Source: Propionispora vibrioides | Lineage (GTDB): Bacteria > Bacillota > Negativicutes > Propionisporales > Propionisporaceae | Length of the DNA stretch: 64,000 nucleotides | Direction of reading: 5' to 3' | Assembly (NCBI RefSeq): GCF_900110485.1 | Contig: NZ_FODY01000016.1 | Span: 1-64,000 of the forward strand | Part shown: one piece after another, positions 5,401 to 56,085 of the stretch | How the letters are laid out: every line of letters begins with the position of its first letter | Numbering within the stretch: position 1 is the first letter of the stretch | The notes under the pieces: model-generated | Databases searched by the model: none | What the model saw: only the letters and a program-made list of their open reading frames with translations | What the model was told of the DNA's origin: nothing | Translations under genes and position numbers: made by a program

Positions 5401-8400
5401 ACGTTCGGTTTCGTTGGTGATAGTCACGTTCTGATCAGCAGTAAGGTTGATCTTGCCTGTTTCGCTGCTGATACCGGAACCCTTGACCACAATATTTTGA
5501 CCGTCCACGTTTATTCCCTTACCGGCGGCGATACTGCTGCCAGCTACCGTTTCATCGGTATTTTGCTGACGGTTGAAGTAGTAGCCGCCCCGCTGGCCGA
5601 CCGAGGCATCGGTCTGGGTCAGATCTTTTTCCGCCGTAATGTTGACGTCATGGGTGGCTGTCAGTTGGATGGTATCGCTTGCTGCGACACCGGAGCCTTT
5701 GATGTTGATATTCTGACCAGAGATAGTCACATTGGTCCCGCCCAGGCTGCTGCCTATGTGAGCCACATCGTTTTCCTCGGCACTGGACTTGGCATAGCTA
5801 ACAGCCACATGTTTTTCCTGCGACACGCTTTCGATATCAATATCCTTTTTGGCGGTCAGGATTAGCTCTTTGCCGGCACTAAGCTGGGCACCCCGGTTGG
5901 TAATGGAGTCTTCCGCCCGAAGGGTCAGATTATTGCCAGCCGTTATGCTCGCCGTATCAAGAATCTTTGTTTGTTCCAATTCGCGATAAGTATCGGTCCG
6001 GGTATTGGTCTGATTTACAATGGTATCGGCTTGCAAGGAAACATCGCTGCCACTGATGGTTCCACTGCTATTAGTAATGGCTTGTTTAGCGGTCAGCTTC
6101 AAATCATCTGCCGTTATCGTGCCATTTTCATTGGTGATGTTTTTCGCATTGACCGTTAGATTTTTATCCGCTTTGATGGTTCCCACATTTTTCAGGTCAT
6201 CCTTGGCAATGAGCTCCACATCGGTGCCAGTAATAATGGCTCCGCTGTTGGTAAGATCCCCTTCTTTAAGACCTGCCAGATAGACTTCGGGTACGAGAAC
6301 CTTTTCCCCATTGATTTCTTCTTCCACCAACCATACGATATCGCTGGTGAGCAAGGCCATTTGCTCCTTGGTCAGCGCCACGCCCACCGACAGGTTGTAG
6401 GTATCAGCGAAGACAGCGGCGTTTTCCATGAGCGCCTTATATTGTTCCAGTTCTGAACCATAATTGGTCAGCAGTTTTTTGCCGGTCATCTCCGTGATTT
6501 GCTCGGTGACCAATTGTTGCTCATAGTAACCGTCGCCTAAGCGCTTCATGACCTTTTCCGGATTAGTTTTGATCCGTTCCAGCAGATAGTCGCTGGACAG
6601 GAAGTTATGATAGTTGGCAAATTTCTCATTCGTCTCGATCAGATATTTTGCCGAGGGTTCCGTATGAATGGAGAAAATTTGCGTATTAATCGCCAGGCTC
6701 CCGATGCTGGGTTCCGTGTTCATCTCAGCAACCTGGGGATTGACCTGGGTGGTTGCTTTTCCTTTTTCTTTATTGGTCAATTGACTCAGCACGTTTGGCT
6801 CGATAGCTTTCTTGGCATCCCTTTGAATCACGTTTTTCCCCGCATCAAAGGTTTTATTGTCGATGGTATCGGCAACAACGGTTACTTTATTTACTCCACT
6901 CAATACGCCTAATCTGGCTGTGTCGGTATCCACTACCGTCTGAGCGTAGTACGGAATCACCGTGGTTCCGTAAACCCAATGACAATGCAAATGGTGCTTA
7001 CTGTGGTGTTTATATTTCCAGAAATGATTGTCGTTCCCCTTGTCTGTAGTGATGATGGTCCCCTGATATCCGTAGTTTTCCACACTCGGCCCTGTTATGG
7101 TTAAGTCATGGCCGGCGGTAATGGTACTGTAATGATTAACTACGGCGGCATCAATCGTAATGTCGTGGTCGGCGGCAATTTGAGCGGTGGCTGTTTCCTG
7201 CTGAATCGTGCCTGTTTTAATTTCCCGGGCGAAATTTCTATTGGCGCTGTAATGCCCGGCTATAGGAGGGATAGCATAGGAAATATTCTGGTTTTTTACA
7301 TTCCAGTCGGTATTAAAAATAGTTTTCTCGTTGACCAGTTTTTGAGCCTTAATACGAATATCCTTCTGGCTTTGGATACTGGAGGATTGGTTTAGTACGT
7401 TATCCTGCGCGTTAATTTCCATATCATCCGAACTATACAGCATAGCATTATCGGTATTATTCAGATTGGCAGCATTAAATTGGGCGAAACCGCCTGCCGC
7501 CATTACGGAGTTCTGATTATCAATGGTTTCTGTAGCATCCACTGTGAGGTTCTTGTCCGTAAAAATGGCAGAACCCGCCTGATTGGCCATATTACGGGCC
7601 TTCAGTCTGGTATTGCCGTCCACAGCAATTGTCGTATTCTTATTGCTCAGTTTCTCCGACAGGTTGATAGTTACGTCGCCGGCGCTCTTGAAATACACCG
7701 TGTCATTGCTTAAATTTTGGCCGGTTATCTGAACCGCCCCGCCACTCTTCACTGTCGAGTTAGCGTTGACTATATCGGCGGACGCCTGCCACTGCAGGTT
7801 CTTACCACTGGTTACCACCGATTTGTCGCCAATGGTAAGATTTTGCATAGTTGCCGTCAGTGCATCGCCACTTTCCAGCACCGAGGTTTGGTTTGTTACA
7901 TCTTTTTCTGCCGTCAGAGTCAGCTTCTCGCCACTGTGAATCAAAGCGTGGTCCCGGTTGACGATGTCTGCTGCCATGATCGTCAAATCACCGTCCGCTT
8001 TAACAGCAGCCGCCTGATTGGTAAATTCACCGGTACTCTGCAGCATAATATTCTGCTTGGCTTGAAGTACCGCCCCATCCTGGTTGCTAAAAGTTCCGGT
8101 TGTGACCTTTGCATCCGCCAGGCCGTTCAAGAGCGATCCCTGATTAACAACGCTATCTGTTGCAGTTACTTCCAGATTGCCTTTAGCCGACAGATAGGCT
8201 CCGTTTTGGTTAGACAGGGTTTCCACTTGCAGCGTACTGCTTCCGTCACTTTTCACTGTGGACTTGTCATTCTGGATAGCGTGGTCCACAGTTACGCCCA
8301 TATCACCACCGGCATAGAGCAAGGCATTACCGGTATTCTGCAGGGACTTGCCTGAAAGCTGCGCCTTACCACCTGCCGAAATGGTTGATGTGTGGTTTTC

Positions 8401-10905
8401 GATATCATTTTTTACAGCAACGGTAAGGTCATCACCACTGAAAATGGCAGCATTGTCCTGATTGCTAAAACTCTTAGCGTGCATAGCAAGGTTGCCGCCG
8501 CTTTGCACAGCAGAAGCCTGATTCAGGACGTCGCCAGCGGCCTCCAGCGTAAGGTCTTTACCTGTTACGACAGCCGCACCGGCGTTATTTCTTAGGTTGT
8601 CCGCCAAAATAACAGCTTGTCCGCCAGCCGTAACCTGTGAGCCTTGGTTTGACAGATCACCGTCAAGCGTAAGGTGAAGATCGCCGCCGCTGTGCAGCAC
8701 GGAACTGTCCGTATTGCTTAAGGCTTTAGCGGTGATGGTTGCCGTTTTTCCACTGTTCAGCATCGCCCGGTTGTTTTCCAGATTGTCCTTAAGTTGTACA
8801 TCGAGCGTACCGGCGGAATCAATAACGCCTTGAGCAGTATTGGCCAGGCGGTTTCCCGTTATGGCCGTATTGCCTGACATGATCATCTTTCCATTATTGG
8901 TTATATCACCGTTGGCGCTTAAGCTCAAATGATTAGCCCACAACTCTGAGGCTGTATTGGCAAAGGCATTGGTAATTACCGTAAGCTGTTCCGTAGCTGC
9001 CGCATTGAGACCGTCACCCTGAATCCATATGTTGCCGTTGGCAACCGGATAAAATTCCACATTACCATTCTGCCAGGTACTGATCAATCCGGTGGCCAGT
9101 GTGGCATTAGCCGTATTGATATAGCCAAGACCGTTAATCACCATACCGTTGGGATTGGCGATAACGATACTGGCCCGGTTGCCGGCTACTTCAATAAAGC
9201 CATTCAAGCTGCTGGACCGATTGCCGGTGACTTCATTTAAAATGACGCTGGCACCAGTTCCGGCCAGGCGGCTGTTATAGTCAATGTACCCGCCCAGTTG
9301 AGTGTAGGCATATTGTGTCGCATTGTTTAAGATCAGCCCGGAGGATTTAACATTAAAGTCGGTATATAGATTGCGTGACACACCACTGGCGGATGGTGTT
9401 GCGATCTGAACCAGATCAATACCGCTGGCCGTTCTATCGATCATTGGTTTATAAATATTAAGAGCTGCCGCATCCGCGGTAAGAGTCAGACCTTCTTCCT
9501 TGGCCACGGCCCGCGTGGCCGCCGTTCCCGGCTGCGCGGGGTTAATTACCGGCAGGTCCGGGATGTCCGGCAGCTCAGGTTGAATGGTATTGGGTATGAC
9601 TTCACTTACCGGCTGTTCCTCCGGCGGCTTAGGGTCGGTATTTCCCGGGTCCGGATTTTCCGGTTCCGGCTCCACCGGGTCGGGATCGGATTGATGTACT
9701 GTCGTATTCTGAGCCATCATCCGGTTAGGATCATAAGTTACCTTTTTGCCGGTCATAACAATATCCCGGCTTGCATTGATTGCTCCGCTTACATCAATAT
9801 TACCGGCAGCCGTCAAGGTTGCGTCGGCCGGAACGATACTGACCGCACCGCTGTTTCCGTCCTCGTCCTCCTCATCATCCTCATCACCGGCACTGATGAA
9901 GCCGCTGCTCGTAATCTGATCAGCAGAAATAGTAACATTTTTATTTGATGTAATTTGTCCATTATTTACAACAGAATCTTTCGAACTGATTGTCACGTCT
10001 TCCTTGGCATTAATATTTCCGTTGATTGTTATTTTTCCTTCATTGGTTAAAGAAAGCTCCTTATCGGCGGAAATCTCACCGTTAACCGAAACACCCAGCC
10101 CCTTCTCGGTACCAATCAACATGATTTTTCCGGCATACATGCCACCAACCGCCCCTACATCAAGGGCCACGCTCGGTGTGTCCGAAAGCGGAGCCGCGCT
10201 AAGCTCCGAAGTTGTCAAATCAGGATAATTTATCTTATTCGTACCTGTTACGACATGGATTTCATCGGCCCATACTTCGGCGTTGATTTTACTCGCTCTG
10301 GTTAAAATATCCAGTTTAGTAGCCGGATTGTCTTCACTCAACCCCTGCCCCTGGATGGCTACATCGCCGCGGTTTACATTAAAAGAGGCCAGATTTCCGC
10401 TATCATCAATATTCGGAGTTCCTGTTACCAGGCTGACCCGGCTGGTATTGATAAAACCGAAACCATCTCCCGTAATACCATTGGGATTGGCAATAATCAC
10501 AGCGGCCTGCGGCCCTGCTACTTCCAGCCTGCCGTTTAAATTGGTACGGTTGGAACCGGTCACTTCATTTACTATGATATTTGCCGCCGAGCCTTGTAAG
10601 TTGGCGTTGGCTTGTATAGTACCGGCAAGTACAGAGTTCGTTGACTGTAAGGCATTATTTAGCACAAGGCCGTTAACATTTACATTGAAGTCGGTGTATA
10701 AGTTGTGGGACAGCCCATTGGCGTTCGGCGCAGCAATGTCTACCACTGTCACCTGGTTTACTTCATTGATGATTGGCTTATGCGCGGCATCAGCCGAAGG
10801 GTCCGCCGTGGTATCGGCAAAAGCAGCCAGCGGCTGAGCCATAAAACTAATTACTATAAAAACAGAACTTATTTTCTTTATTGCCAGTCGTACTTTTTTC
10901 TTCAT
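2494..10905 (-). CDS. cdiA: CdiA-like filamentous hemagglutinin / TpsA exoprotein with two TPS domains
   Basis: A 2803-residue secreted exoprotein. It starts with a signal peptide (about 1-31) and a TPS/haemagglutination-activity domain (about 43-240; NEVTG and IIANPNGI motifs). An acidic patch (341-350) and a proline-rich linker (about 405-460) follow, then a second TPS domain (about 486-660; again NLYTDFNV, NEVTG, IVIANPNGM). Next are long FHA-type beta-helix repeats (GGDLxLxxxGDxxNQ pattern) to about residue 1400 and hemagglutinin repeats to about 2350. The C-terminal part has the CdiA pretoxin layout (LHALVGGIMSDLGGNSFASGAAGAGVNE, then LHQWASVLVG) and ends in a toxin tip of about 250 residues that I do not recognise. 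The gene follows cdiB by 12 bases. The 3' end below about 3840 is clearly more AT-rich than the rest, as expected for an exchanged toxin module. Confidence 0.88.
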   Translation of the reverse strand: MKKKVRLAIKKISSVFIVISFMAQPLAAFADTTADPSADAAHKPIINEVNQVTVVDIAAPNANGLSHNLYTDFNVNVNGLVLNNALQSTNSVLAGTIQANANLQGSAANIIVNEVTGSNRTNLNGRLEVAGPQAAVIIANPNGITGDGFGFINTSRVSLVTGTPNIDDSGNLASFNVNRGDVAIQGQGLSEDNPATKLDILTRASKINAEVWADEIHVVTGTNKINYPDLTTSELSAAPLSDTPSVALDVGAVGGMYAGKIMLIGTEKGLGVSVNGEISADKELSLTNEGKITINGNINAKEDVTISSKDSVVNNGQITSNKNVTISADQITSSGFISAGDEDDEEDEDGNSGAVSIVPADATLTAAGNIDVSGAINASRDIVMTGKKVTYDPNRMMAQNTTVHQSDPDPVEPEPENPDPGNTDPKPPEEQPVSEVIPNTIQPELPDIPDLPVINPAQPGTAATRAVAKEEGLTLTADAAALNIYKPMIDRTASGIDLVQIATPSASGVSRNLYTDFNVKSSGLILNNATQYAYTQLGGYIDYNSRLAGTGASVILNEVTGNRSSSLNGFIEVAGNRASIVIANPNGMVINGLGYINTANATLATGLISTWQNGNVEFYPVANGNIWIQGDGLNAAATEQLTVITNAFANTASELWANHLSLSANGDITNNGKMIMSGNTAITGNRLANTAQGVIDSAGTLDVQLKDNLENNRAMLNSGKTATITAKALSNTDSSVLHSGGDLHLTLDGDLSNQGSQVTAGGQAVILADNLRNNAGAAVVTGKDLTLEAAGDVLNQASAVQSGGNLAMHAKSFSNQDNAAIFSGDDLTVAVKNDIENHTSTISAGGKAQLSGKSLQNTGNALLYAGGDMGVTVDHAIQNDKSTVKSDGSSTLQVETLSNQNGAYLSAKGNLEVTATDSVVNQGSLLNGLADAKVTTGTFSNQDGAVLQAKQNIMLQSTGEFTNQAAAVKADGDLTIMAADIVNRDHALIHSGEKLTLTAEKDVTNQTSVLESGDALTATMQNLTIGDKSVVTSGKNLQWQASADIVNANSTVKSGGAVQITGQNLSNDTVYFKSAGDVTINLSEKLSNKNTTIAVDGNTRLKARNMANQAGSAIFTDKNLTVDATETIDNQNSVMAAGGFAQFNAANLNNTDNAMLYSSDDMEINAQDNVLNQSSSIQSQKDIRIKAQKLVNEKTIFNTDWNVKNQNISYAIPPIAGHYSANRNFAREIKTGTIQQETATAQIAADHDITIDAAVVNHYSTITAGHDLTITGPSVENYGYQGTIITTDKGNDNHFWKYKHHSKHHLHCHWVYGTTVIPYYAQTVVDTDTARLGVLSGVNKVTVVADTIDNKTFDAGKNVIQRDAKKAIEPNVLSQLTNKEKGKATTQVNPQVAEMNTEPSIGSLAINTQIFSIHTEPSAKYLIETNEKFANYHNFLSSDYLLERIKTNPEKVMKRLGDGYYEQQLVTEQITEMTGKKLLTNYGSELEQYKALMENAAVFADTYNLSVGVALTKEQMALLTSDIVWLVEEEINGEKVLVPEVYLAGLKEGDLTNSGAIITGTDVELIAKDDLKNVGTIKADKNLTVNAKNITNENGTITADDLKLTAKQAITNSSGTISGSDVSLQADTIVNQTNTRTDTYRELEQTKILDTASITAGNNLTLRAEDSITNRGAQLSAGKELILTAKKDIDIESVSQEKHVAVSYAKSSAEENDVAHIGSSLGGTNVTISGQNINIKGSGVAASDTIQLTATHDVNITAEKDLTQTDASVGQRGGYYFNRQQNTDETVAGSSIAAGKGINVDGQNIVVKGSGISSETGKINLTADQNVTITNETERHESLHEEHREKTGFLSSTKTDIYDYQSQDKVKGSSLSGHELAVTANENVTVQGSSAVADQDVTLKATTGNINIEAAEEISRSDYEKSVKKSGLFSGGGIGFTIGKQSQKSTNELDSVSQAGSVVGSTGGNVTLEAGKDVAVTASDIISGQDTTITGQNVTIQAADNIDKEHDTYQFKQSGLSVSLGGRAIDNIQAVYQPAKRATEVEDSRLKALYDYKAVKAVDNLSKGKNADGSDPKGGGLSVSVSLGTTKQQSETNAEAVTAAPSQVTAGGDVNITATGVKDKDGQVIDGGDLNIIGSTVDGKNIHLKAANDVNLIAADNTTQSETTNSGKSASIGVSLSQGQAPGFFLGGNKSKGNENGNTLTHTNTQITATDTVTIESGEDTNLKGAQVKGKTVNVKADGDLNLESLQDEDNYKETNKSAGATINFGAGGVSGIGSASKGKINSEYQSVTEQTGIYAGEGGFDIQVGQNTDLKGAVISSEATPDKNKLSTDTLTYSDIENHADYSASSVGVNLDTRKYSKDDPNYKNQGLTPDIGVPAKGSANSTTKSAIASGTVDVRSNPNQDISSLNRDTTNVVNTLGKIFDKKSVQEKQELSKLFGELAYEEVHKISDRAKEAAQNELNKAQADANSTPEQLAALQAKVDSWDTGGSNKTALHALVGGIMSDLGGNSFASGAAGAGVNEAVQKELSKITEPDLHQWASVLVGTAAAKTIGGNGQSGASTGASGTKNNELSGIVEKRQLSDAQIEMYEKMQAELEESKTGATDFMREYQDLASWLYVDDKAVAAAGAYGTEYAMDTKIASMLLNHALYGNGEAMHFGFGESVSADLTNSAILKNGIKKAAADLSPGQTKYVYASIDYNQEDENKNAPSLDQKLAYGNLKVAIQITRDENNNISFYGQAGDAYNFEYHNYVEKIESVKNQGLKEIFKAGVLTLINNGAVAYQNTGALQPFTWTADIQGMIAGG

Positions 10906-18574: not shown

Positions 18575-18634
18575 TAAAAAAGCCAAGGAAAGCACTCGAG
18601 GTGTTTCCTTAGCCTTCAGTCTTTCTGATCAGCT
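18575..18634 (-). promoter_or_regulatory. UGR/AG attenuator, copy 1 (metY leader)
   Basis: Minus-strand RNA: AGC-UGA-UCAG-aaaga-CUGA-AG-GCU, then the terminator stem GGCUAAGGAAA with its complement and UUUUUU. The outer AGC/GCU helix shares its 3' strand with the terminator 5' strand, so the two folds exclude each other. It ends 40 bases before metY. I know no described family with this consensus. Confidence 0.8.
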
Positions 18635-18657
18635 TATTCACTATCTTCTTTTGTTAT

Positions 18658-18756: not shown

Positions 18757-18963
18757 TTATATTCCGTCACCATAAATCCCTTCAACACCGGTAAACCGCT
18801 GTTTTTCGGTCCGGTCAAGCTGGGTGACCTTGCCGTCCTTGATCACAATGACCACCTGGCCAAATTTCAGTCCGTCCACAGCCTCTGCGATCCGTTTGCG
18901 CAAAGCCTGCGATTTAGCCTGATTGGCCGCCTCCTGTGAAACTGCTTCCTTTTTTGCAGGCAT
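18757..18963 (-). CDS. Small YezD-like (DUF2292) protein
   Basis: 68 residues. A charged N-terminal helix (1-30) precedes the DUF2292 core GQVVIVIKDGKVTQLDRTEKQR and a tail ending GIYGDGI, which is also the tail of the 138-residue paralogue at 47105-47521. Function of the family is unknown. Members often sit with sulfur-assimilation genes. It is the second gene after an S-box riboswitch, 57 bases behind another DUF2292 gene. A GCGAGG ribosome site supports the ATG. Confidence 0.8.
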   Translation of the reverse strand: MPAKKEAVSQEAANQAKSQALRKRIAEAVDGLKFGQVVIVIKDGKVTQLDRTEKQRFTGVEGIYGDGI

Positions 18964-19020: not shown

Positions 19021-19194
19021 TCAGCATAATCTAATTTTCTCGACCCGCTCAATCTGGATAATACGGGAGTCCTGGACGATTAAGGTAACTGAACCGTGCA
19101 ATGTGCTATTAATAACCTTTTCAATTTGGTCCATAACCGCCTGGGGCACAACTTCCTGCTGCACCGCACTTACGTTCTTTTTTGTATTTGCCAT
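19021..19194 (-). CDS. Small YezD-like (DUF2292) protein, first gene of S-box operon
   Basis: 57 residues from the ATG at 19194, which has a GAGGTG ribosome site. A longer frame reaches 19254 but would begin inside the riboswitch terminator. The core is GSVTLIVQDSRIIQIERVEK, the single-domain DUF2292 pattern, without the GDGI tail. It directly follows the S-box and is therefore expected to be made when SAM is low. Confidence 0.8.
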   Translation of the reverse strand: MANTKKNVSAVQQEVVPQAVMDQIEKVINSTLHGSVTLIVQDSRIIQIERVEKIRLC

Positions 19195-19279: not shown

Positions 19280-19384
19280 CTCTCATCGCCAGGATTAATT
19301 ATCCTGCTGGAATTAGCACCACTGCATTGCTGCCGGTTGCCGGGTTTCTTCGGGCCAGTCCCTCGACCTCTCTGGATAAGAGCT
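19280..19384 (-). promoter_or_regulatory. SAM-I (S-box) riboswitch 1
   Basis: Minus-strand RNA with P1 CUCUUAUC/GAUGAGAG, the conserved AGAGGUCGAGGGACUGGCCC, then GAAGAAACCCGGCAACC and the GGUGCUAAUUCC P4 segment. These are the diagnostic S-box blocks. Downstream genes are two DUF2292 ORFs and possibly metY. Confidence 0.97.
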
Positions 19385-20754: not shown

Positions 20755-20815
20755 AAAAAAGGCCAAAGAAGCTGCAGCAAGCATCTCCTTTGGCCTTCAG
20801 TTTTTCTGATCAGCC
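20755..20815 (-). promoter_or_regulatory. UGR/AG attenuator, copy 2 (cysK leader)
   Basis: GGC-UGA-UCAG-aaaaa-CUGA-AG-GCC followed by the terminator stem GGCCAAAGGAGAUGC with its complement and UUUUUU. The outer helix is GGC/GCC instead of AGC/GCU, a compensated change. It lies 150 bases before cysK. Confidence 0.8.
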
Positions 20816-20842
20816 TACCATCCAAACCAACTTGTTACTTAC

Positions 20843-23691: not shown

Positions 23692-23750
23692 AAAAAAAGG
23701 CCAGGACAATCCCACTAGGATTATCGCAGCCTTCAGTAGCTCTGATCAGC
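23692..23750 (-). promoter_or_regulatory. UGR/AG attenuator, copy 3 (alcohol dehydrogenase leader)
   Basis: GC-UGA-UCAG-agcua-CUGA-AG-GC followed by a 15-bp terminator stem with one mismatch and two GU-type pairs, then UUUUUUU. It ends 38 bases before the GTG start. Confidence 0.78.
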
Positions 23751-23772
23751 AAACGCATTCTTTTTACTTACC

Positions 23773-23866: not shown

Positions 23867-23895
23867 TTGACGATCCTGTAAAAATAGTATATGAT
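23867..23895 (+). promoter_or_regulatory. Sigma-A promoter of D1K1
   Basis: TTGACG (23867-23872), 17-base spacer, TATGAT (23890-23895) on the plus strand, back to back with the dehydrogenase promoter. Confidence 0.7.
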
Positions 23896-23933
23896 CAAAC
23901 CATACTTTAAAAGAAAATAATCCCTGCCTATAT

Positions 23934-23988
23934 GGTTAACCGTTCAATGGAAACCGGAGATCATACGCTGTGCGTATGGTCTTTTTTG
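23934..23988 (+). promoter_or_regulatory. UGR/AG attenuator, copy 16 (D1K1 leader, diverged helices)
   Basis: Only plus-strand copy. GGU-UAA-CCG, a 12-base loop, CGG-AG-AUC, then the terminator AUCAUACGC-ugu-GCGUAUGGU and CUUUUUU. Both helices differ entirely from the consensus yet pair, the UAA/AG internal loop is kept (UAA also occurs in copy 11), and the outer helix again overlaps the terminator. It lies 67 bases before the gene. Confidence 0.6.
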
Positions 23989-24054
23989 TTGTACAGGAAG
24001 CCGGATTCAAGAGCGGTTTTCTGCAGTAACACAAACATAAATGGAGGAATGAAG

Positions 24055-25503
24055 ATGAGTGTTAACTTAACAAGTCCGGCCGTCGAACTCCGGGAATCGC
24101 GTCTGCATACGATCACCGGCTACGAAGGCGATGCCGCCCGTTTAATCAGTTGCCGCGACCTGCCCAACCGGGAGAGAAGCTTTACCCAGTGCGGTTCCTG
24201 CGGCGCCGATCAGGTTATGAACCTGTTGAGTCAGATCCAGGATGCCGCTGTCGTTGAACATGGCCCTGCCGGCTGCGCCAGCGACATTCCCTTTCGCAAT
24301 GGTGTTTTCCGTATGGGAAACCGGCGCTTAGGCTATCACGTGCATAATATCAAATATATCAATACCAACCTGAATGAAAATGATACCATTTACGGCGGCG
24401 AGGCCAAACTGGATCAGGCGGTCCGGGAAGCGTACCGCCGCTTTCAGCCTAAAGCCATTTTTGTCACTACCACCTGCGCTTCGGCTATTATCGGCGATGA
24501 TGTTCCCGGTATTTGCGACGCCCTGGAGGAAGAGCTCGGCATCCCGGTCATTGCCACCTTATGCGAAGGCTTCCGCACCAACATCTGGGCCACCGGCTTC
24601 GATTCGGCCAATCATAGCATTCTGCGCAAAATTGTTAAACCGGCCAGACAGAAACAGGCCGATTTGATTAACGTCATTAGCTTCGAGCACCATTTTTTGT
24701 ATCAGAGTGTGTTTGAACAGCTGGGGTTACGCGCCAATCATATTGTGCCGTTATCCACGATTGAACAATTGGAACATATTTCCGAGGCCGCCGCTACTGT
24801 CCAATACTGTGAAACCTTAGGCAGCTATCTGGCGGCCGGCTTGGAGGAATATTTCGGAGTTCCCGAGGTCAAAGCCCCCGCCCCCTTTGGTCTGAAAGCT
24901 TCGGATGAACTGCTGCGGGAAATCGGCCGTCTTTTTAACAAAGAAGCAGCAGCGGAAAAAGTCATTGCCAACGAACGGGCCAACATTGCCCGGGATCTGG
25001 AACGGCTCAGAAACCGCCTGACCGGCAAAAAAGTTTATATCGCGGCCGGTGGTCCGCTCGCTTACAGCATTATTGCCCTGGTTAAGGACCTCGGTATGGA
25101 GGTCGTTGGCACTTCAGTATGGCACCATGATCAAACCTACGATAACGATGATGACCGGATCAACTTTCTCAATTTTGCCGTCAAAACATACGGAAATTTT
25201 CATGTAGGTGTTTGCAATAAACAAGCCTTTGAGGTAACCAATGCCATCAATAAGTACCAGCCCGATATTGCCATCACCCGCCATATTGAAACCGTATGGG
25301 CCGCCAAACTAGGAATTCCCTCCATCTTTGCCGGCAACCAACCGACAGAAATGCTGTATGACGGGTTGATCCGTTTCGGCCAGACCATTGATGATGCCAT
25401 TTCCAATCCGGCGTACATCAAAAACGTAGCCAAGCATAGTAAACTTCCCTATACCGATTGGTGGCTCAACCAAAATACCTACTCTTTCTTAAGGAGCGAA
25501 TGA
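24055..25503 (+). CDS. Nitrogenase-like component 1 alpha subunit, D1
   Basis: 482 residues from the ATG at 24055 (GGAGG seven bases before); a longer frame reaching 23932 would run through the leader terminator. NifD superfamily. P-cluster cysteines: C46 or C49 (TQCGSCG), C74 (HGPAGC) and C141 (TTTCASAIIGDD). By eye, the NifD Cys275 equivalent is kept (C252, VQYCETLGSY), while Gln191 is Trp178, His195 is Phe182, and no His stands at the His442 place. So it probably holds a P-cluster and a cofactor without a FeMo-co-type His ligand. The partner K1 starts one base after its stop. Closest paralogue in the window is D2. Likely a methylthio-alkane-reductase-type (MarD) enzyme; substrate unknown. 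Confidence 0.85.
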   Translation: MSVNLTSPAVELRESRLHTITGYEGDAARLISCRDLPNRERSFTQCGSCGADQVMNLLSQIQDAAVVEHGPAGCASDIPFRNGVFRMGNRRLGYHVHNIKYINTNLNENDTIYGGEAKLDQAVREAYRRFQPKAIFVTTTCASAIIGDDVPGICDALEEELGIPVIATLCEGFRTNIWATGFDSANHSILRKIVKPARQKQADLINVISFEHHFLYQSVFEQLGLRANHIVPLSTIEQLEHISEAAATVQYCETLGSYLAAGLEEYFGVPEVKAPAPFGLKASDELLREIGRLFNKEAAAEKVIANERANIARDLERLRNRLTGKKVYIAAGGPLAYSIIALVKDLGMEVVGTSVWHHDQTYDNDDDRINFLNFAVKTYGNFHVGVCNKQAFEVTNAINKYQPDIAITRHIETVWAAKLGIPSIFAGNQPTEMLYDGLIRFGQTIDDAISNPAYIKNVAKHSKLPYTDWWLNQNTYSFLRSE

Positions 25504-25504
25504 T

Positions 25505-26830
25505 ATGACTGGAATCTTACAAGGACCGCGCCACGGCTGTGCCTTAGGTGCATTTCAAAGCGTTGTCGCCATTGAGCGGGCCATTCCCATCCTGCATGCC
25601 GGCCCCGGCTGTGGCTCCAAGCTGCACCGCGGCTTATCCCGGGCCGGCGGTCAGCAGGGTACCGGCTACGCCGGGGCCGATGCCATGCCCTGCACCAATA
25701 TGATTGAAAAAGACGTTGTTTTTGGCGGTACCGATAAATTGCGGGACGTCATCTCCGGAACCTTACAGATTATGGACGGTGATTTTTTCGTTGTCCTGAC
25801 CGGCTGCACCGCCGACATTATCGGCGACGATGTCAGCAGCATTGTCAGCGAATTTACGCAGCAAAACATTCCCATCGTCCATGTTGAGACAGCAGGCTTT
25901 AAAGGAGACGGTTACAAAGGCCACGAGCTGCTGCTGGAGGCGATTATCAACCAGTACTTAAAACCGGTAGAGCAAACAGAACCCAGCCTGGTCAACGTAT
26001 TTGCCAGCGTACCGCGCCATGATCCCTTTTGGGAGGGCGATTTGCATGAGTTGAGGCAGCTCTTGGCGGGTATCGGTCTTAAAGCGAATATTTTGTTCGG
26101 CTACAACAGCGGCGGCCGCCAAGCGCTTGATGCCATCCCCGCTGCCCAGTTCAATCTGGTGGTTTCCCCCTACATCGGACTGAAAGCGGCCCAATTGCTG
26201 CAGGAAAAATTCGGCACCCCGTTTCTTCATTATCCGGTGCTGCCTGTGGGTGGCACGGAAACCTCCCGCTTTTTACGCACCGTAGCCGAATTTGCCGGAA
26301 CAGCATCGCCGGCAACGGAAGCGTTTATTAAAGAGCAGGAAGCTGAATTTTATCATTACATTATCCGGGCGGCCGATGTACTAACCGAGTACCAGCTTAA
26401 TCAGCCCAAACGGTTTTATAATATCAACGATACTTCCTATGCCCTGGCGTTCAGCAGATTCCTGGTAAATGAACTGGGCTATTTCCCGCTCCACCAGTTT
26501 GTAACCGAAGAGGTGCCGGAAGAATATCAGGAAACCATCAAACAATATTTTCAGGACCTGGCGCCGGGTATTTCCTCGGATATTACCATTACACAAGACA
26601 GTGGCGTCATTGAAGACCATATCCGTTCCACCCGCCATCTGACCACACCGCTGTTTCTCGCTTCCTGCTGGGAACTGGACGTAGCCAGAGATGCTAAAGG
26701 TATTCACCTTAGCGTCGGGCTGCCGGTTATCGACCGGTTAGTACTGCATCGCACCTATGCAGGGTACCGCGGCGGTTTGAACCTGGTCGAGGATATCTAT
26801 TCCCGCTTGCTGGGCAAGCACCGCGAATAA
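25505..26830 (+). CDS. Nitrogenase-like component 1 beta subunit, K1
   Basis: 441 residues, NifK superfamily, short N-terminus. The three P-cluster cysteines are C12 (PRHGCALG), C36 (HAGPGCG) and C101 (LTGCTADIIGDD), so with D1 the P-cluster site is complete. It would form the alpha2beta2 partner of D1 and accept electrons from the NifH-like protein encoded at 45973-46848. The start ATG overlaps the D1 end region and a GGAG ribosome site lies inside D1. A perfect terminator follows. D1K1 is separate from the main nitrogenase-like operons and has its own attenuated promoter. Confidence 0.85.
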   Translation: MTGILQGPRHGCALGAFQSVVAIERAIPILHAGPGCGSKLHRGLSRAGGQQGTGYAGADAMPCTNMIEKDVVFGGTDKLRDVISGTLQIMDGDFFVVLTGCTADIIGDDVSSIVSEFTQQNIPIVHVETAGFKGDGYKGHELLLEAIINQYLKPVEQTEPSLVNVFASVPRHDPFWEGDLHELRQLLAGIGLKANILFGYNSGGRQALDAIPAAQFNLVVSPYIGLKAAQLLQEKFGTPFLHYPVLPVGGTETSRFLRTVAEFAGTASPATEAFIKEQEAEFYHYIIRAADVLTEYQLNQPKRFYNINDTSYALAFSRFLVNELGYFPLHQFVTEEVPEEYQETIKQYFQDLAPGISSDITITQDSGVIEDHIRSTRHLTTPLFLASCWELDVARDAKGIHLSVGLPVIDRLVLHRTYAGYRGGLNLVEDIYSRLLGKHRE

Positions 26831-28563: not shown

Positions 28564-28628
28564 AGAAAAAAAGCTAACAGCATTCCTTAACAAGGAATGG
28601 CTATTAGCCTTCAGTTCTCTGATCAGCC
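28564..28628 (-). promoter_or_regulatory. UGR/AG attenuator, copy 4 (upstream of LarA-like gene)
   Basis: GGC-UGA-UCAG-agaa-CUGA-AG-GCU followed by the stem GGCUAAUAGCCAUUCC with its complement and UUUUUUU. No good promoter is seen between it and the nitroreductase stop (58 bases upstream), so it may act on read-through from that gene. Confidence 0.75.
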
Positions 28629-28686
28629 TATTCTATCTATGTAATACTTTGCCCGGTCTGACGGAATTTTCGGGAAAAATCCGTTT

Positions 28687-29282: not shown

Positions 29283-29353
29283 CAAAAAAGGACAGATTAA
29301 GATTCAAAAGAAAATTAACCTGACCTTTGGTCTGTTTACCAACCAGTCTGCCT
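29283..29353 (-). promoter_or_regulatory. UGR/AG attenuator, copy 5 (nitroreductase leader, diverged)
   Basis: GAC-UGG-UUGGU-aaacag-ACCAA-AG-GUC followed by a terminator stem GGUCAGGUUAA with its complement and UUUUUU. Outer and inner helices both differ from the consensus and both still pair; the UGR/AG internal loop is kept. Confidence 0.7.
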
Positions 29354-35386: not shown

Positions 35387-36892
35387 TCAGGCATTGCTTT
35401 CATCAATGTACGAAAAAGCATCCTTCTCATACCAGTCGTCCCGGTACGGCAGGCGGATATTTTGCCCCAGACTCCGGTTAAACGCCGGATTCCGGAGAAT
35501 TCTGGCCAACCGGCGGGCAAATTCAAATACGCCGGCATACCCCAAAAAGAGCTGGCTCTGGTGAAAAAGAGGAATAACGGGAATACCCTGTTTGGCGGCC
35601 CAGGCATTGGTGCCCACATGGCCGACATACACATCGGGTTTCAGCCTGTGTACCAGGTTTGCCATTTCAAAGGGCTGCCCGGTAGCGACATTAAAGGGAA
35701 TCTGCTGGATAGCCTCCTGTTCACCCAGCATTTCATCGCCGAATTGATCATAATGGTAGGCCCGCAGCCCAATGACTTCCAGCCCTAAATACTGGAGCAG
35801 TTCGGCATTGGCCACGACACGGATTTCCCCGCCGCCGACCAGCACCCGTTTGCCCTTGAACAACTCCCGGTAAGGGGCTAGGGCTTCTTCCAACTGCCTG
35901 ACCTCCTGATCAATAAACCGCGCTGCCTCTTTTTCCATACCAAAAAATTCGGCAATGTCCTGAATCCAGCGATTGGTGTATTTTACACCGATTGGAATGG
36001 TCCGGAGAATAAAGGGAATATGGTATTTCTCTTTCAGATGTTCAACAAAATAGTCGTCATGGGTCGCGCAAATACTTACATTTAAGGCCGCTTCAGTCGC
36101 TTTTTTAAAATCCTCCGGATGAGCATAACAGGGCAGGATGTTGAGATTCAAATCCAGCGCCTGCAGCAGCCGTACCAATTCATATTCGTCAATGCGGCTC
36201 ATGGAAGAAACATTTAATACGTTAACCGTGCGGCTGATGCGGTACTTTTCCAGAAATATTTCCTGTTCATCCCGCTCCAGCCGTTCATCGACCGGATCAG
36301 GTTCAATCAAATTGCGCAATATGCCGTGATAGACGGCGTCGTAGGCGCTGGCCATAATTTTCGTTTTAAAGCCTTCACAATGGACCGGCACAATTTTGGC
36401 CTTTACTTCCTTTTGCACCTGTTCCACCACACTGTCGACATCATCGCCGATAATGGCCGGCACACAACTATTTACAATGATAATGGCGCTGGGGCGGAAT
36501 TCCTGTTCAGCATGTAAAATAGCCTCACGCAAATTGTCTTCGCCACCGTTAATAACTTCGGCTTCTCTTAAATTGGTATTCACCCAGATCAGACCCCGGG
36601 CACTGCTATCGCGCAGTTGCTGAAACCCCTTGTTAATGCCCGCCTGCGCCAGACTGCCGCCACCGCAGCCCACCGGACCATGAACAATCACCACGGCATC
36701 GCGGATGGTATTTAAAATCGCCAGGCTTAAATTCAACTGACAGCCCTGAGTCTGGGCGAATTTCCGTTTGATCCCGTTGAGACAACCCTTTTGTGATTGA
36801 TCTACCAACCGGCCGCTCGGTCCACCGTAGGCATTGCAGGCCTTTAAGCGGTCCTCGCGCACCGGGGGCGCTTTTTCCTGTATATAATCCAT
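35387..36892 (-). CDS. Nitrogenase-like component 1 alpha subunit, D3
   Basis: 501 residues, NifD superfamily, the most diverged of the three D proteins. P-cluster cysteines C51 (TQGCQLN), C76 (HGPVGC), C143 ([11 protein letters not shown]). The Cys275 equivalent is C275 here as well ([10 protein letters not shown]). Gln191 is Met180, His195 is Tyr184 and no His lies at the His442 position, though a His (LFHQSQ) is three residues further. It carries a charged insertion (about 200-216) absent in D1. It follows K3, so the gene order is K-D, opposite to the other pairs. Catalytic or scaffold role is open. Confidence 0.83.
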
Positions 36893-36910
36893 TGATACCG
36901 GCTCCCTTCC

Positions 36911-38248
36911 TTATCGGTTGCTTACCAATATTCCCAGTACATCCTCGGTCAACCGCAAGGCCCCGCTATACCCGGCATAAGCCCGGTCCAGCACTACCCG
37001 GTTGGAGATGGGATAGGCCACACTTAAATGAGCGGCCCCCAGGGTATCGGCAAAATCTTTTTCCAGGCTGCTGCCAAAGACAAAAGCCGGACTAAACGAA
37101 TCAAAATATCGGTTGTTCCGGTTCCGGGGCCAGGCCTTGCTAAAATGCTTGCCCACACTGGCCGTATCGGTATCGAATATCACTTGCGGCTCAACCCCGC
37201 ATAACCCCTGAAAGCGCTTTCTTACCGACTCCTGTTCCGCCTCCTCCAGATCATCAGTGATTACCACCAGCTCCGGCAGCCAGCCCAGGTCATCGGCCAA
37301 AAATTTGGTTAACGCCGACGCATAATTGGCATCGGCTACGACTACGCTGTAGCGCTGAAAATCAAGATCGTTATACACATCGGCTAACCGCACCAGGTAA
37401 TCATAATAACGCTTCTTTTCTCCGGCAATAACCTTTTCCAGCTCGTGGCCTGGAATGTTCAACGCCCTGCCAACGGTACGCAAAAACTCCTCCGTGCCGG
37501 TTGGCCCGATGGGCAGCGGGGCAATCACATAGGGCACGCCATGCACTTCTTCAAATACTTTAGCCGGTTCCACGCCGGACACGTCGGATACAACAATATT
37601 CAAGCGGGCTGCCGCCGCAGATTTTAGGTTTTCCAGTGTTTCCCCTTCGCCAAAAAAGGTGTTGACCTGATAGCCCAGCTTCTGAATCAGCGCTTTCAAG
37701 ACCTGCAGGTTGCCTTTCCAGAATACGTCCTGCACCGGAACCAGGCCAAACAGGTTCACCGTCTTCTCTTCCTTCACCGGATTAGGGGTAACAAAATCAC
37801 GGAATAATTTGCTGAGAACAATATCATAGCCCTGATACGAGTTGCCCTTGAACCCGCCTGTCTCGGCTGCCAGTACCGGTTCTCCCGCCTGGCGGAACCG
37901 ATTAGCTACGGCAACGGCGTCATCACCGATAATATCCACCATACAGCCTGTTACAACAAAATATAAATCGCCGTCAACCACTTCCAGCGTGCTGGCGATC
38001 TGTTCTTCCAGACGCTCCTCACCGCCAAAGACAATATCCTTCTCGTAGATATTGGAGCTGGGCAGGGCCTGGCCGGCACAGTAGCTGCTGCCCAGATAAC
38101 CGGCGGCTCCGTTTAAGGCATTGGTGAAGTTGCCGCCGCAGCCGGCAGCGGCATGCAGGATGGATATGGTCCGCGGCAGGGCATTTAACGTGGCTACCGC
38201 ACCGCCCATAGTGCACAAATAACGCGGCCGGTCAATAAATTTGCTCAT
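36911..38248 (-). CDS. Nitrogenase-like component 1 beta subunit, K3
   Basis: 445 residues, NifK superfamily. Cysteines C12 (RYLCTMGG), C37 (HAAAGCGG), C102 (VTGCMVDIIGDD) complete a P-cluster site with D3. NifN usually lacks one of these, so a simple NifEN scaffold role is less likely. First gene of an operon that runs K3-D3-cysK-ATPase-two permeases-NifX-small ORF-metY. Two attenuators in tandem and one promoter precede it. GGGAGG ribosome site. Confidence 0.85.
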   Translation of the reverse strand: MSKFIDRPRYLCTMGGAVATLNALPRTISILHAAAGCGGNFTNALNGAAGYLGSSYCAGQALPSSNIYEKDIVFGGEERLEEQIASTLEVVDGDLYFVVTGCMVDIIGDDAVAVANRFRQAGEPVLAAETGGFKGNSYQGYDIVLSKLFRDFVTPNPVKEEKTVNLFGLVPVQDVFWKGNLQVLKALIQKLGYQVNTFFGEGETLENLKSAAAARLNIVVSDVSGVEPAKVFEEVHGVPYVIAPLPIGPTGTEEFLRTVGRALNIPGHELEKVIAGEKKRYYDYLVRLADVYNDLDFQRYSVVVADANYASALTKFLADDLGWLPELVVITDDLEEAEQESVRKRFQGLCGVEPQVIFDTDTASVGKHFSKAWPRNRNNRYFDSFSPAFVFGSSLEKDFADTLGAAHLSVAYPISNRVVLDRAYAGYSGALRLTEDVLGILVSNR

Positions 38249-38288: not shown

Positions 38289-38355
38289 CAAAAAAGGCAA
38301 AGAGGATTCCGTAAAGGATTCTTCTTTGCCTTCAGTATGGATATACTGATCAGTC
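38289..38355 (-). promoter_or_regulatory. UGR/AG attenuator, copy 6 (proximal, K3D3 operon)
   Basis: UGA-UCAGUAU-aucc-AUACUGA-AG with a longer 7-bp inner stem; the outer helix here is weak (one GC, or a shifted UUUG/CAAA). The terminator stem GGCAAAGAAGAAUCC with its complement and UUUUUU follows. It ends 41 bases before K3. Confidence 0.72.
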
Positions 38356-38503
38356 AAATCTCATAGCCTGCGACTGGCTTATTCCAAGCGAGCCTGGTTA
38401 AGACCGCTGCCATGCCGTCATCACTTCGTTATTCACTTAATGAATATCGTGCACTCACTCAGAAATCTTGCCGCTATCGCGCAAAGCCCGGCACGGGAGT
38501 ATG

Positions 38504-38566
38504 AAAAAAGCTAAGGCATACCCTAGGGAGGGTACTAACCTTAGCCTTCAGTTATTCTGATCAGCA
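38504..38566 (-). promoter_or_regulatory. UGR/AG attenuator, copy 7 (distal, K3D3 operon)
   Basis: GC-UGA-UCAG-aauaa-CUGA-AG-GC followed by the stem GGCUAAGGUUAGUACCC with its complement (one bulge) and UUUUUUU. About 150 bases of unassigned sequence separate it from copy 6. Confidence 0.78.
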
Positions 38567-38592
38567 AATGCTCTCATTCATTATTTTCTTTA

Positions 38593-38785: not shown

Positions 38786-40102
38786 TTACTGAAAATCTTC
38801 CAGTACCAAGGAATAGATATCCTCAACCAGCCGTAAGGCCCCTTCATAGCCTACATAGGAGCGGTTTAGCACCAGGCGGTTGGTAACCGGTGTGGCCAGG
38901 GAAAGCTGATAGCCGTTAATTTCCCGCGATAAAACACGGTCCCAGGCGCTGCCCAGAATGAGAGGCCGGCTGCGGAAGGTAAGCTTGCGGATATCTTCAT
39001 GAATTTCGCCACCGTCATTGCTGAAAACCACCTTCGCCTCAATGCCGTCCTCGAAGTTTTTAAATTCTGCCGTTATGCTGTCCTGGTATTCTTCGGCAAC
39101 GCCATCAGTGATATACTGGGTTTCCGGCAGCAAACCCAAATCATTGATTAAAAAGCGGGCTACGCCAAGCGCATAGAAACTATCGGCAATGGAAACAAAC
39201 CGCCGGGGCATCAACTGCGTTTCCAGCAGGGAATCGGCAGCCCGGTCAATGTAATAGTAATAATCCTGCTCCAGCTTGTTAATGATTTTTTCCACCCGTT
39301 TGCCCTCGATGCCGGCATAGGTTCCCACGGTGCGTAAAAAATTCGCCGTTTCGGTCGGTCCGATCGGCAGCACCGGATAATGCAGATAAGGCGTGCCAAA
39401 CTTCGCCTCCAGATGTTTTACATTTTTGAGGCCTACCCAGGGAGAAACCAGTAAATTAAACTGGGCTTTCGGTACCCGCCGCAAGGCCTCCAGCCCGTTG
39501 CCCGGACCGAAAATAATGTTGGGCGTCAGACCCAGCAGCGCTACCAGTTTTTCAATCTCCCGGAGGTTACCCACCCAGAAAGGGTCCTGGTAAGGCACAA
39601 CGGCCCAGATGTTCACCAACCTGGCCTCTTTTTCCGCGGCTGGCTGCAAATACTGTTCGATAATGGCATCCAGCACCAGCTCATGGCCAAACAAGTTACT
39701 GCCTTTAAAGCCGCCTGTTTCCACAGCCACAACCGGCTTGCCCTGTTCCTGAAACCGGCGGGCCACTTCGCTTACATCGTCACCGACAATATCGGAAGTA
39801 CAGCCGGTCAAAATAACAAACAGCCCGGCATCAATGACTTTAAGGGCATTGCTCACAATATCACGCAGCCGGTCGTCACCGCCAAAGATGACTTCCTTTT
39901 CCCCGATATTAGTGCATGGCACCGAGTGGCCGCCGACATAACCCGACCCCTGGCAGCCATTGGCCGAGCCCAAGGTCCGCCATAACTTCTGACCGCAGCC
40001 CGGTCCGGCATGCAAAATAGGCGCTGCCTTTTCAATAGCCAATACCGATTGATAGCCACCCAAGGCGCATACATGGCGTACCTGCTCTACAAATCGCGAC
40101 AT
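38786..40102 (-). CDS. Nitrogenase-like component 1 beta subunit, K2
   Basis: 438 residues, close to K1 throughout. Cysteines C12 (RHVCALGG), C36 (HAGPGCG) and C101 (LTGCTSDIVGDD) complete a P-cluster site with D2. Its ATG overlaps the D2 TAA by one base, with a GGTGGGA ribosome site in the D2 end, so the pair is translationally coupled. It is the last gene of the nifB operon. Confidence 0.86.
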   Translation of the reverse strand: MSRFVEQVRHVCALGGYQSVLAIEKAAPILHAGPGCGQKLWRTLGSANGCQGSGYVGGHSVPCTNIGEKEVIFGGDDRLRDIVSNALKVIDAGLFVILTGCTSDIVGDDVSEVARRFQEQGKPVVAVETGGFKGSNLFGHELVLDAIIEQYLQPAAEKEARLVNIWAVVPYQDPFWVGNLREIEKLVALLGLTPNIIFGPGNGLEALRRVPKAQFNLLVSPWVGLKNVKHLEAKFGTPYLHYPVLPIGPTETANFLRTVGTYAGIEGKRVEKIINKLEQDYYYYIDRAADSLLETQLMPRRFVSIADSFYALGVARFLINDLGLLPETQYITDGVAEEYQDSITAEFKNFEDGIEAKVVFSNDGGEIHEDIRKLTFRSRPLILGSAWDRVLSREINGYQLSLATPVTNRLVLNRSYVGYEGALRLVEDIYSLVLEDFQ

Positions 40103-41568
40103 TATCCCACCTCGTCCTGTAAAAAAGTAAAGCTATCCTGCTCCATCCACCAGTCGGTATAAGGAAGAGTGACCCTGGCTGACAGCTTTTTGACAAAATT
40201 ACGGTTTGTCAAAGCGTCCAGCACCCGAAAGCCAAAATCCACCAGTCCCTGATAGCCATAGGCGGTATATTCGTCACCAATCATAATCGACGGTATGCCC
40301 AGTTTGGTAGCCCAAACCGTCATGCCCGGATGGCGGCCGATATATAAATCAGGTTTTAGTTTATTAAGCAGATTCATCATTTCAAACACCTGCTGGTCGG
40401 CCACGCTAAAGGGGATATCCTCGGTTCCTTCCAGCAAATGCTGTACCGTTTCCGGTGACTGGCCGCTGTCATACTGCGGATCGTAATGCCAGGAGGCACC
40501 CCAGATAATCTCAACGCCCAGTTCCTGCAGCGTCCGGATGTAGTCATGGGCAAAACTGGGTCCCATACCGACAACCGCTTTTTTGCCTTTGAGTTTTCCC
40601 CGCAGTTCGGCCAGTTCACCGGCAATCCGGTCTTTTTCTTCCTTTATATAAGCTTCCACGGCCGCTTCCTTGCCGACAATCTTTCCCAATTCCCGGAGCC
40701 AGTTGTCCGTCCCCGTTATACCGTGCGGCTGCAATGCTTTCACATAAGGAACTCCATATTGCTGTTCCAGGGCATTGCCGAAGTATCCCCCCAGCGTGCC
40801 GCAAATACTAATGGTCGCCACCGATTCGGAGGTTCGCGCCAGTTCGTCTATCGAACTATAGGGCACCATAAATACCGGCTCCAGACCAAACCTGGCCAGC
40901 ATGGCCGTAATCTGTTGGCGGGCGCTGCCCCGAAAATTAATCAGGTTTACCTTATTGGTTTTCTTTTCCGGCGGTTTGACAATTCCCGTTAAGATGGCAT
41001 GGAAGGCCGCATCAAAACCGGAAGCCCAGATTTGTGATTTAAACCCTTCGCAGAAGACGGGCGTCAACGGCACCGGAATCTCGTCTCTTAATTCATCCAG
41101 CGCGCTGATAATGTCCTCGCCGATAATGCCTGATACGCAGGAAGTGGTAACAAAGATAGCCTTCGGCTGAAACCGCCGATAGGCTTCCCGCACCGCGTCC
41201 TTCAGTTTGGCAACCGCCCCGAAAACGGTATCTTCCTCCACCATATTGGTATTAAGAATATTGATATTCCGGTACTCCAGGCCTCTGACCTTGCGGCCCC
41301 ATTTATCCTGTTCATTGGCCCCGGCACTGTCACCGGCACAGCCGATTGGCGCGTGATTGACCACTGCCGCATCGACAATACCGGACAGATAATTTTGGGC
41401 GCAACCGGAGCTGCAGGCACTGGCCTGGCTGAAGCATCTGCCTTTATTTTGCAACGAACAGCCTGATACACGGGCTCCCAAATCCCGGATGGTGCCCTGG
41501 TAACCGGTAATGGAGCCCAGACGGTTCTCCCGGATGGCTACTTCGGGAAGCTCTAAATTAATCGCCAT
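40102..41568 (-). CDS. Nitrogenase-like component 1 alpha subunit, D2
   Basis: 488 residues from the ATG at 41568 (GGAGG); a frame to 41592 lacks a site. Paralogue of D1 (RENRLGSITGYQG matches RESRLHTITGYEG). P-cluster cysteines C52 or C56 in a Cys-rich stretch (residues 37-56), C77 (HAPIGC) and C144 (TTSCVSGIIGED). Cys275 equivalent C256 is kept; Gln191 is Trp181, His195 is Phe185, and the His442 place has no His. It shares the operon with nifB, two permeases and a binding protein, so transport of a sulfur substrate and its reductive cleavage are likely linked. Probable methylthio-alkane reductase-type subunit. Confidence 0.86.
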   Translation of the reverse strand: MAINLELPEVAIRENRLGSITGYQGTIRDLGARVSGCSLQNKGRCFSQASACSSGCAQNYLSGIVDAAVVNHAPIGCAGDSAGANEQDKWGRKVRGLEYRNINILNTNMVEEDTVFGAVAKLKDAVREAYRRFQPKAIFVTTSCVSGIIGEDIISALDELRDEIPVPLTPVFCEGFKSQIWASGFDAAFHAILTGIVKPPEKKTNKVNLINFRGSARQQITAMLARFGLEPVFMVPYSSIDELARTSESVATISICGTLGGYFGNALEQQYGVPYVKALQPHGITGTDNWLRELGKIVGKEAAVEAYIKEEKDRIAGELAELRGKLKGKKAVVGMGPSFAHDYIRTLQELGVEIIWGASWHYDPQYDSGQSPETVQHLLEGTEDIPFSVADQQVFEMMNLLNKLKPDLYIGRHPGMTVWATKLGIPSIMIGDEYTAYGYQGLVDFGFRVLDALTNRNFVKKLSARVTLPYTDWWMEQDSFTFLQDEVG

Positions 41569-41608
41569 AGCAATGGTACCTCCTCTATCCACTTCACACT
41601 AAATATAT

Positions 41609-45727: not shown

Positions 45728-45783
45728 TAAAAAGGCTGCAGAAATCGTCTGTTTCTGCAGCCTTCAGTCGGGTCTGATCAGCT
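45728..45783 (-). promoter_or_regulatory. UGR/AG attenuator, copy 8 (nifB operon)
   Basis: AGC-UGA-UCAG-acccga-CUGA-AG-GCU followed by the stem GGCUGCAGAAAC with its complement and UUUUU. No promoter is evident upstream: a MITE copy abuts it. It may control read-through from nifH. Confidence 0.78.
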
Positions 45784-45790
45784 TGTTGCC

Positions 45791-46933: not shown

Positions 46934-46998
46934 AAAAAAGACCAGAAGAACATTTCCGCAGAAATGCCTCTGGCCTTTAGCTTGATAACTAATCAGCA
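46934..46998 (-). promoter_or_regulatory. UGR/AG attenuator, copy 9 (nifH leader)
   Basis: GC-UGA-UUAG-uuaucaag-CUAA-AG-GC followed by the stem GGCCAGAGGCAUUUC with its imperfect complement and UUUUUU. The inner stem UUAG/CUAA replaces UCAG/CUGA, a compensated change. Confidence 0.75.
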
Positions 46999-47028
46999 TA
47001 TGAATATTAAATAATAGCTCTTTTGTTT

Positions 47029-47544: not shown

Positions 47545-47603
47545 CTTAGGGCTAAGGGCACAGATATTTCCCTCGCGCCTTCAGTTAAATTCCTGATCAG
47601 CCG
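47545..47603 (-). promoter_or_regulatory. UGR/AG attenuator, copy 10 (degenerate, DUF2292 leader)
   Basis: GGC-UGA-UCAG-gaauuuaa-CUGA-AG-GC is intact, but the following stem is imperfect and has no U run. It may be decayed or act in another way. Confidence 0.55.
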
Positions 47604-47633
47604 CGCCATTGACAAGCGTAGTCGATGAAAAAC

Positions 47634-47696: not shown

Positions 47697-47715
47697 TATT
47701 CTTTTATTGAGTTAA

Positions 47716-55940: not shown

Positions 55941-55995
55941 TCTGCTATGCTCTTTTTATAACGCCTTTGCCGTCAAAAGCTCCAGCACTGGGAAA

Positions 55996-56058: not shown

Positions 56059-56085
56059 TTGGGCTACCCGTTAGAATATAAAAAT

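Follow-up and report, generated by a model that had tools for sequence, protein, structure and literature searches.

Antitermination by BglG, SacY and LicT relies on the RAT: an RNA-binding protein stabilises this hairpin, which is 23-30 nt long and overlaps with a terminator (PMC4347634). ANTAR proteins such as EutV and NasR also support protein-dependent antitermination via a hairpin overlapping the terminator (PMC8934654), and their targets comprise two hairpins with 6-nt loops, in which A stands at position 1 and G at position 4. For sulfur genes, premature termination is known from the SAM-I riboswitch (S box), a metabolite aptamer of ~108 nt. Here we describe the leader of the nitrogenase-like D1K1 operon of Propionispora vibrioides, located in a 64,000-nt stretch of DNA that was analysed as a whole (the window), and the family of candidate antiterminator hairpins with a UGA/AG internal loop around it.

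The D1K1 hairpin overlaps its terminator as RAT hairpins and ANTAR targets do, and the family shares sulfur genes and premature termination with the SAM-I riboswitch. RAT hairpins also contain internal loops. However, the UGA/AG family has a conserved U(G/A)A/AG loop and is found at sulfur genes, not sugar genes, and the CAT-RBD partner of RAT (PF03123) is missing from 25 of the 39 genomes with at least three canonical elements (element-rich genomes). In contrast to ANTAR targets, one hairpin suffices, most leaders have a single hairpin, and the internal loop is conserved instead of the hairpin loop, which over 84 distinct contexts was 2-14 nt long, mostly 4-5 nt, without conserved sequence. 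The element of ~25-35 nt is also much unlike the SAM-I aptamer in size and has no RF00162 match. In its proposed action it resembles a protein-dependent antiterminator of the RAT type, yet it lacks a consistent CAT-RBD partner and the dual hexaloop of ANTAR targets. In an Rfam search of the window only two SAM riboswitches matched above the curated cut-off, and a permissive search of the D1K1 leader (E<=5) gave nothing beyond noise. Sulfur-gene leaders of the UGA/AG kind were not found in the passages searched of three structured-RNA surveys (PMC6429828, PMC8632094, PMC11109978) and of an attenuator survey (PMC2965389). Judged from open-licence papers, this RNA switch is apparently undescribed so far.

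The D1K1 leader and its competing folds

The leader and operon have the following features.

23867-23895 (+), sigma-70-type, promoter-like sequence of the D1K1 operon, TTGACG-17-TATGAT
23931-23965 (+), candidate antiterminator element, UAUGGU-UAA-CCG-(12 nt)-CGG-AG-AUCAUA
23931-23936 with 23960-23965 (+), outer helix of the element
23937-23939 (UAA) and 23958-23959 (AG) (+), internal loop of the element
23940-23942 with 23955-23957 (+), inner helix of the element, 3 bp
23943-23954 (+), hairpin loop of the element, UUCAAUGGAAAC, 12 nt
23956-23988 (+), intrinsic terminator with a 12-13 bp stem at 23956-23984, then a U tract
24055-25503 (+), D1, nitrogenase component 1-like protein (PF00148), start preceded by GGAGGA
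25505-26830 (+), K1, nitrogenase component 1-like protein (PF00148)

The 3' arm of the outer helix is part of the 5' arm of the terminator, which confirms the overlap originally proposed, and hence the folds of element and terminator are mutually exclusive. The original prediction described this leader as a copy with both helices replaced and the internal loop kept. Its element, promoter-like sequence and terminator overlap were all recovered, and the contrast between the canonical form of many minus-strand leaders (NGC-UGA-UCAG..CUGA-AG-GCN), which likewise overlaps terminators, and D1K1 (GGU-UAA-CCG..CGG-AG-AUC) is real, but the wording on bases and on promoter distance was overstated. With the loop as register, three of the six loop-adjacent pairs differ in both bases (C-G to U-A, U-A to C-G and A-U to G-C), so that it goes too far to say that none of the consensus helix bases is left. 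One further pair changes on one side only (G-C to G-U), the second inner pair C-G is unchanged, and the outermost G-C of D1K1 in this comparison is a common alternative in other copies. Similarly, the -10 element lies 41 nt from the loop in D1K1 versus 24, 27 and 30 nt in three minus-strand copies, distances that are similar and not the same. The loop itself is present as UAA/AG, although the usual loop of the family is UGA/AG and UAA is the minority form (9 of 84 contexts).

Predicted folds of this leader compete. In the minimum-energy fold of the full leader, GGUU pairs with AACC in a competing hairpin beside the terminator. The isolated 35-nt element (-7.2 kcal/mol) forms the outer helix as proposed, with a U.G pair within the loop and the inner part bulged. 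The leader of the closest orthologue (L063) has no GGUU/AACC and carries a 5-bp inner helix, CCGUU/AACGG, which favours the fold originally proposed.

We assessed the D1K1 copy against chance in three ways. A descriptor made of an outer helix, U(G/A)A, an inner helix, AG and an overlapping terminator, without any helix sequence specified, found nine sites in the window, including the D1K1 copy, and none in eight dinucleotide shuffles. For a pair-profile score, 34 other cores served as the training set, from which the D1K1 leader and the leaders of D1 orthologues were left out; the D1K1 leader obtained 17.5 bits, and none of 1000 shuffles of the leader scored as high (mean -0.86, sd 4.0, maximum 15.0). 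R1, an Infernal covariance model built from 22 other elements, placed its best match in the 122-nt leader at exactly 23931-23965, yet weakly (6.0 bits, E 0.11), and the D1K1 copy was not among R1 matches at E<=10 in a search of the whole window, probably because its inner helix is short (3 bp) and its hairpin loop long (12 nt). Accordingly, the prediction withstands its original check against shuffled sequence by the flexible score, and only weakly by the rigid model.

Pairing and loop in related leaders

Our cleanest test of pairing and loop used 51 leaders selected solely by the D homologue encoded downstream of them. The element was found in 18 of them, where 0.06 were expected from shuffles, and nine altered-loop controls on the same leaders gave 0, 0, 0, 0, 0, 2, 1, 0 and 0. 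Helix-swapped forms include GAU-UGA-CCG..CGG-AG-GUC, GGU-UGA-CCGG..CCGG-AG-ACC and others. Several stages are seen among the D1 orthologues. L063, whose protein is 90% identical, carries AUGAU-UGA-CCG..CGG-AG-GUCAU; L064, L065 and L067 carry GU-UGA-CCAG..CUGG-AG-AC; L066 and L069 carry UUAGC-UGA-UCA..UGA-AG-GCUAA; and L052 carries GGU-UGA-CCAA..UUGG-AG-GCC. The L053 leader (Clostridium acidisoli), read by eye as AGU-UGA-CUAG..CUAG-AG-ACU, was also matched by R1 with 33.1 bits.

Because these relatives were chosen by their proteins and keep pairing with swapped helices, the claim that the element works as RNA is supported. The accompanying claim, that the loop is the recognition site, stands as to constraint on the loop (0-2 matches in altered-loop controls versus 18 leaders), while its being bound is what we infer. 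D1K1 was also called the strongest single argument for both claims. This is overstated, since it is one of many helix-swapped copies and its covariance-model score alone is weak. Taken together, the comparative data are strong evidence for RNA pairing and a constrained loop, and on these comparative grounds the D1K1 copy, with its U(G/A)A/AG loop between two helices and overlapping a terminator, is a member of a large RNA family that has no Rfam entry. A single odd leader has thereby grown into evidence that an RNA regulatory element, apparently undescribed, is widespread.

Across the 84 contexts, the 5' side of the loop was UGA in 75 and UAA in 9, and the 3' side was AG in all 84, as demanded by the descriptor. 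The pairs adjacent to the loop almost always have a pyrimidine on the 5' side and a purine on the 3' side. When any loop was permitted in the window, UGA/AG was the commonest and UGG/AG the next, and CGA/AG occurred once in a clear leader. In an alignment of 22 sequences, eight of eight pairs changed on both sides while the loop scarcely varied, and covariation was 0.675, compared with 0.349 for shuffled and at most 0.243 for slid alignments; these sequences were picked by a descriptor that demands pairing, and hence this covariation describes the family rather than proves it. Of 65 elements compared with their terminators, 64 were the less stable fold (median -7.4 kcal/mol, versus -22.2 kcal/mol for the terminator). 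Termination should therefore be the default, and the hairpin needs help.

Genes near the elements and the DUF2292/YezD proteins

Elements and companion genes of the window, all on the minus strand, are listed below.

18610-18635 (-), UGA/AG element that follows the DUF2292 pair and precedes a PLP enzyme gene of Cys/Met metabolism
18758-18963 (-), DUF2292 protein, second of the pair
19027-19194 (-), DUF2292 protein, first of the pair
19280-19382 (-), SAM-I riboswitch directly upstream of the DUF2292 pair, 84.1 bits
19636-19661 (-), UGA/AG element after the PALP gene, inner helix UCG/CGA
20791-20816 (-), UGA/AG element before the cysteine synthase-like (PALP) gene
23727-23752 (-), UGA/AG element, leader of the divergent zinc dehydrogenase gene
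28605-28629 (-), UGA/AG element upstream of a LarA-like gene
29321-29349 (-), UGG/AG loop variant in the leader of a nitroreductase gene
38327-38356 (-), tandem element before a nitrogenase-like operon, second of two
38542-38567 (-), first element of the same tandem
45758-45784 (-), UGA/AG element before a NifB-like radical SAM gene
46971-46999 (-), UGA/AG element before a nifH-like gene, inner helix UUAGUU/AGCUAA
47105-47521 (-), DUF2292/YezD fusion of two domains, 138 aa, with two elements in its leader; candidate trans-acting factor
47574-47603 (-), second of the tandem elements in the leader of the DUF2292 fusion gene
47672-47697 (-), first element of the same leader, UAA/AG form
55912-55941 (-), second tandem element upstream of 55869 (-), before an NlpA-family lipoprotein gene
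56034-56059 (-), CGA/AG variant, first tandem element upstream of 55869 (-), before the same lipoprotein gene
57968-57996 (-), UGA/AG element upstream of an SLH-domain gene
58083-58109 (-), UGG/AG variant before the SLH-domain gene, tandem to 57968-57996

Three nitrogenase-like D/K gene pairs (24055-26830, 35387-38248 and 38786-41592) lie in one cluster with nifH- and nifB-like genes, and immediately to the left of this cluster is an open frame of 2803 codons (2494-10905, -).

In the genome as a whole, the canonical pattern had 13 matches and its reversed control none, and R1 matched 29 sites at E<=0.5, of which 19 reached E<=0.01; most of them lie on the contig of the window. Adjacent genes encode Cys/Met PLP enzymes and cysteine synthase-like, nifH-, nifB-, D/K-like, LarA-like and NlpA-family lipoprotein products; the neighbouring genes are of sulfur-metabolism and nitrogenase-like type. 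Among 300 genomes of the class, 88 had canonical matches, and the reversed pattern gave two. Matches in one family of the class, for example CTGATCAGCGTGGCCCAGGATTTTCTGAAGG in several genomes, appeared coding-like and were left out of the evidence, and for this reason co-occurrence was tested on genomes with at least three canonical matches.

The best candidate for a trans-acting factor is DUF2292/YezD, which may bind the element. The pair and the fusion are all the DUF2292 domains detected in this genome. DUF2292 occurs in 39 of 39 element-rich genomes versus 105 of 300 genomes overall, and, counted by family, in 15 of 15 families with element-rich genomes versus 25 of 35 families (p 0.001, with no correction for the tree). 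In many genomes DUF2292 genes lie ~30-280 nt before or after elements. Moreover, among 30 loci of distant Bacillota outside the class, fetched for DUF2292 alone, a strict element soon follows the DUF2292 gene in six, where 0.2 were expected and altered-loop controls gave 0-1; at the other 24, and at many loci within the class, there is no strict element nearby. Genes after these outside-class elements read by eye as sat (sulfate adenylyltransferase), cysK (cysteine synthase) and a sulfonate-type binding protein. A SAM riboswitch precedes DUF2292 in the window, at six other loci of the class and at two loci outside it, and its position ahead of the pair suggests that low SAM raises DUF2292 and thus sulfur scavenging.

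At Negativicutes loci (L119-L167), DUF2292 is nearly always encoded as two adjacent genes or as a two-domain fusion, and the second copy ends in G(D/E)GI; one DUF2292 domain was found at L052, L055 and L061. The fusion is predicted to fold as two helix-strand-strand units (mean pLDDT 74.6), and the net charge of DUF2292 is just slightly positive. A fold search with this model gave no usable match and no solved RNA-binding domain (best Foldseek E 0.11, best VIA Z 3.3), a result compatible with a new fold as well as with an old one. A PDB sequence search with DUF2292 had no match.

Proposed control and alternative explanations

We consider it probable that, as a whole, the leader terminates by default and is relieved at low sulfur by a trans factor that reads the loop, the likeliest being DUF2292/YezD. 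The D1K1 leader would be an antiterminator RNA with a hairpin interrupted by an internal loop of 3+2 bases, 5'-U(G/A)A / AG-3'. By default the more stable terminator would form and the D1K1 genes would be off. Upon sulfur shortage, probably of SAM, the factor would read the internal loop, ignore the helix sequence and keep the small hairpin closed, so that the terminator is blocked and read-through occurs at D1K1 and at some 20-30 other genomic sites. DUF2292/YezD, whether made as a pair of small proteins from adjacent genes or as one fusion of both domains, would itself be controlled by a SAM riboswitch and/or its own UGA/AG elements; hence low SAM would raise DUF2292 and open sulfur-scavenging operons. 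The grounds for this explanation are the sequence, the mutually exclusive folds, covariation, the conserved loop, regulon context and the positional linkage of DUF2292, from which we infer binding, direction of control, signal and the identity of the factor. Counting against it are the DUF2292 loci that lack a nearby strict element, the missing fold match to solved RNA-binding domains, the low positive charge of DUF2292, the weak covariance-model score of the D1K1 copy and the competing hairpin in its leader. Going further, we lean slightly toward DUF2292/YezD being a new RNA-binding antiterminator family, which would read the five-base UGA/AG loop regardless of helix sequence and, under SAM-riboswitch control, run sulfur scavenging throughout Bacillota by an RNA circuit of two tiers.

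The same RNA antiterminator could instead be bound at its loop by another protein, for example of ANTAR or CAT-RBD type, with DUF2292 a co-regulated protein of sulfur metabolism. We find no function for DUF2292/YezD (PF10055) in open-licence papers and no fold match to RNA-binding proteins, and ANTAR proteins are common, occurring irrespective of the element in 240 of the 300 genomes; however, they had no match in G021, a genome 87% complete with 11 canonical elements. CAT-RBD is present in just 14 of 39 element-rich genomes, the element is unlike the RNA targets of either protein type, and even outside the class the gene linked to the element is that for DUF2292. ANTAR and CAT-RBD proteins seem poor candidates, and a partner other than DUF2292 seems unlikely to us. 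Still less probable is a very small riboswitch, in which the UGA/AG hairpin would bind a metabolite and outcompete the terminator. Small aptamers embedded in terminators are known (HMP-PP class, as cited in PMC8632094), but conservation is confined here to five loop bases and the flanking pyrimidine-purine closing pairs, with the hairpin loop and most helix bases varying. Moreover, no Rfam family matches, and linkage to DUF2292 would be left unexplained.

Two readings without an RNA switch were rejected. The commonest form CTGATCAG and the D1K1 form GGTTAACC are perfect 8-bp palindromes, as would suit a DNA operator bound as duplex by a repressor or activator, but the helix-swapped CTGACCAG, CTGACTGG and GTTGACTAG are not palindromes and yet pair with the other strand of the hairpin, and the site is downstream of the promoter and overlaps a terminator; we regard an operator as very improbable. 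The least credible reading is a coding stretch with accidental pairing. It would start at the ATG at 23932, in frame with D1 (523-aa ORF), and 23932-25503 is indeed one open frame in the ORF listing. However, no Shine-Dalgarno sequence precedes 23932, whereas 24055 is preceded by GGAGGA, the orthologue L063 has a stop in that frame, and a terminator with a U tract lies between 23932 and the start of D1.

If loop-dependent antitermination by DUF2292/YezD is true, it would explain how anaerobic Bacillota activate their nitrogenase-like genes and others of sulfur salvage, and the known RNA-protein recognition pairs would gain a compact, helix-independent member. DUF2292/YezD, a small family including a Bacillus subtilis member, thereby gains a proposed role that is testable.

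In the D leader of Clostridium acidisoli (L053:2701-2960, +), the UGA/AG element and terminator are followed by a SAM-I riboswitch-like sequence, as seen by eye, and this arrangement reads as two putative sulfur signals in series. Elements of the window are often tandem (38327-38567, 47574-47697, 55912-56059 and 57968-58109, all minus strand), which perhaps allows tighter or graded control.
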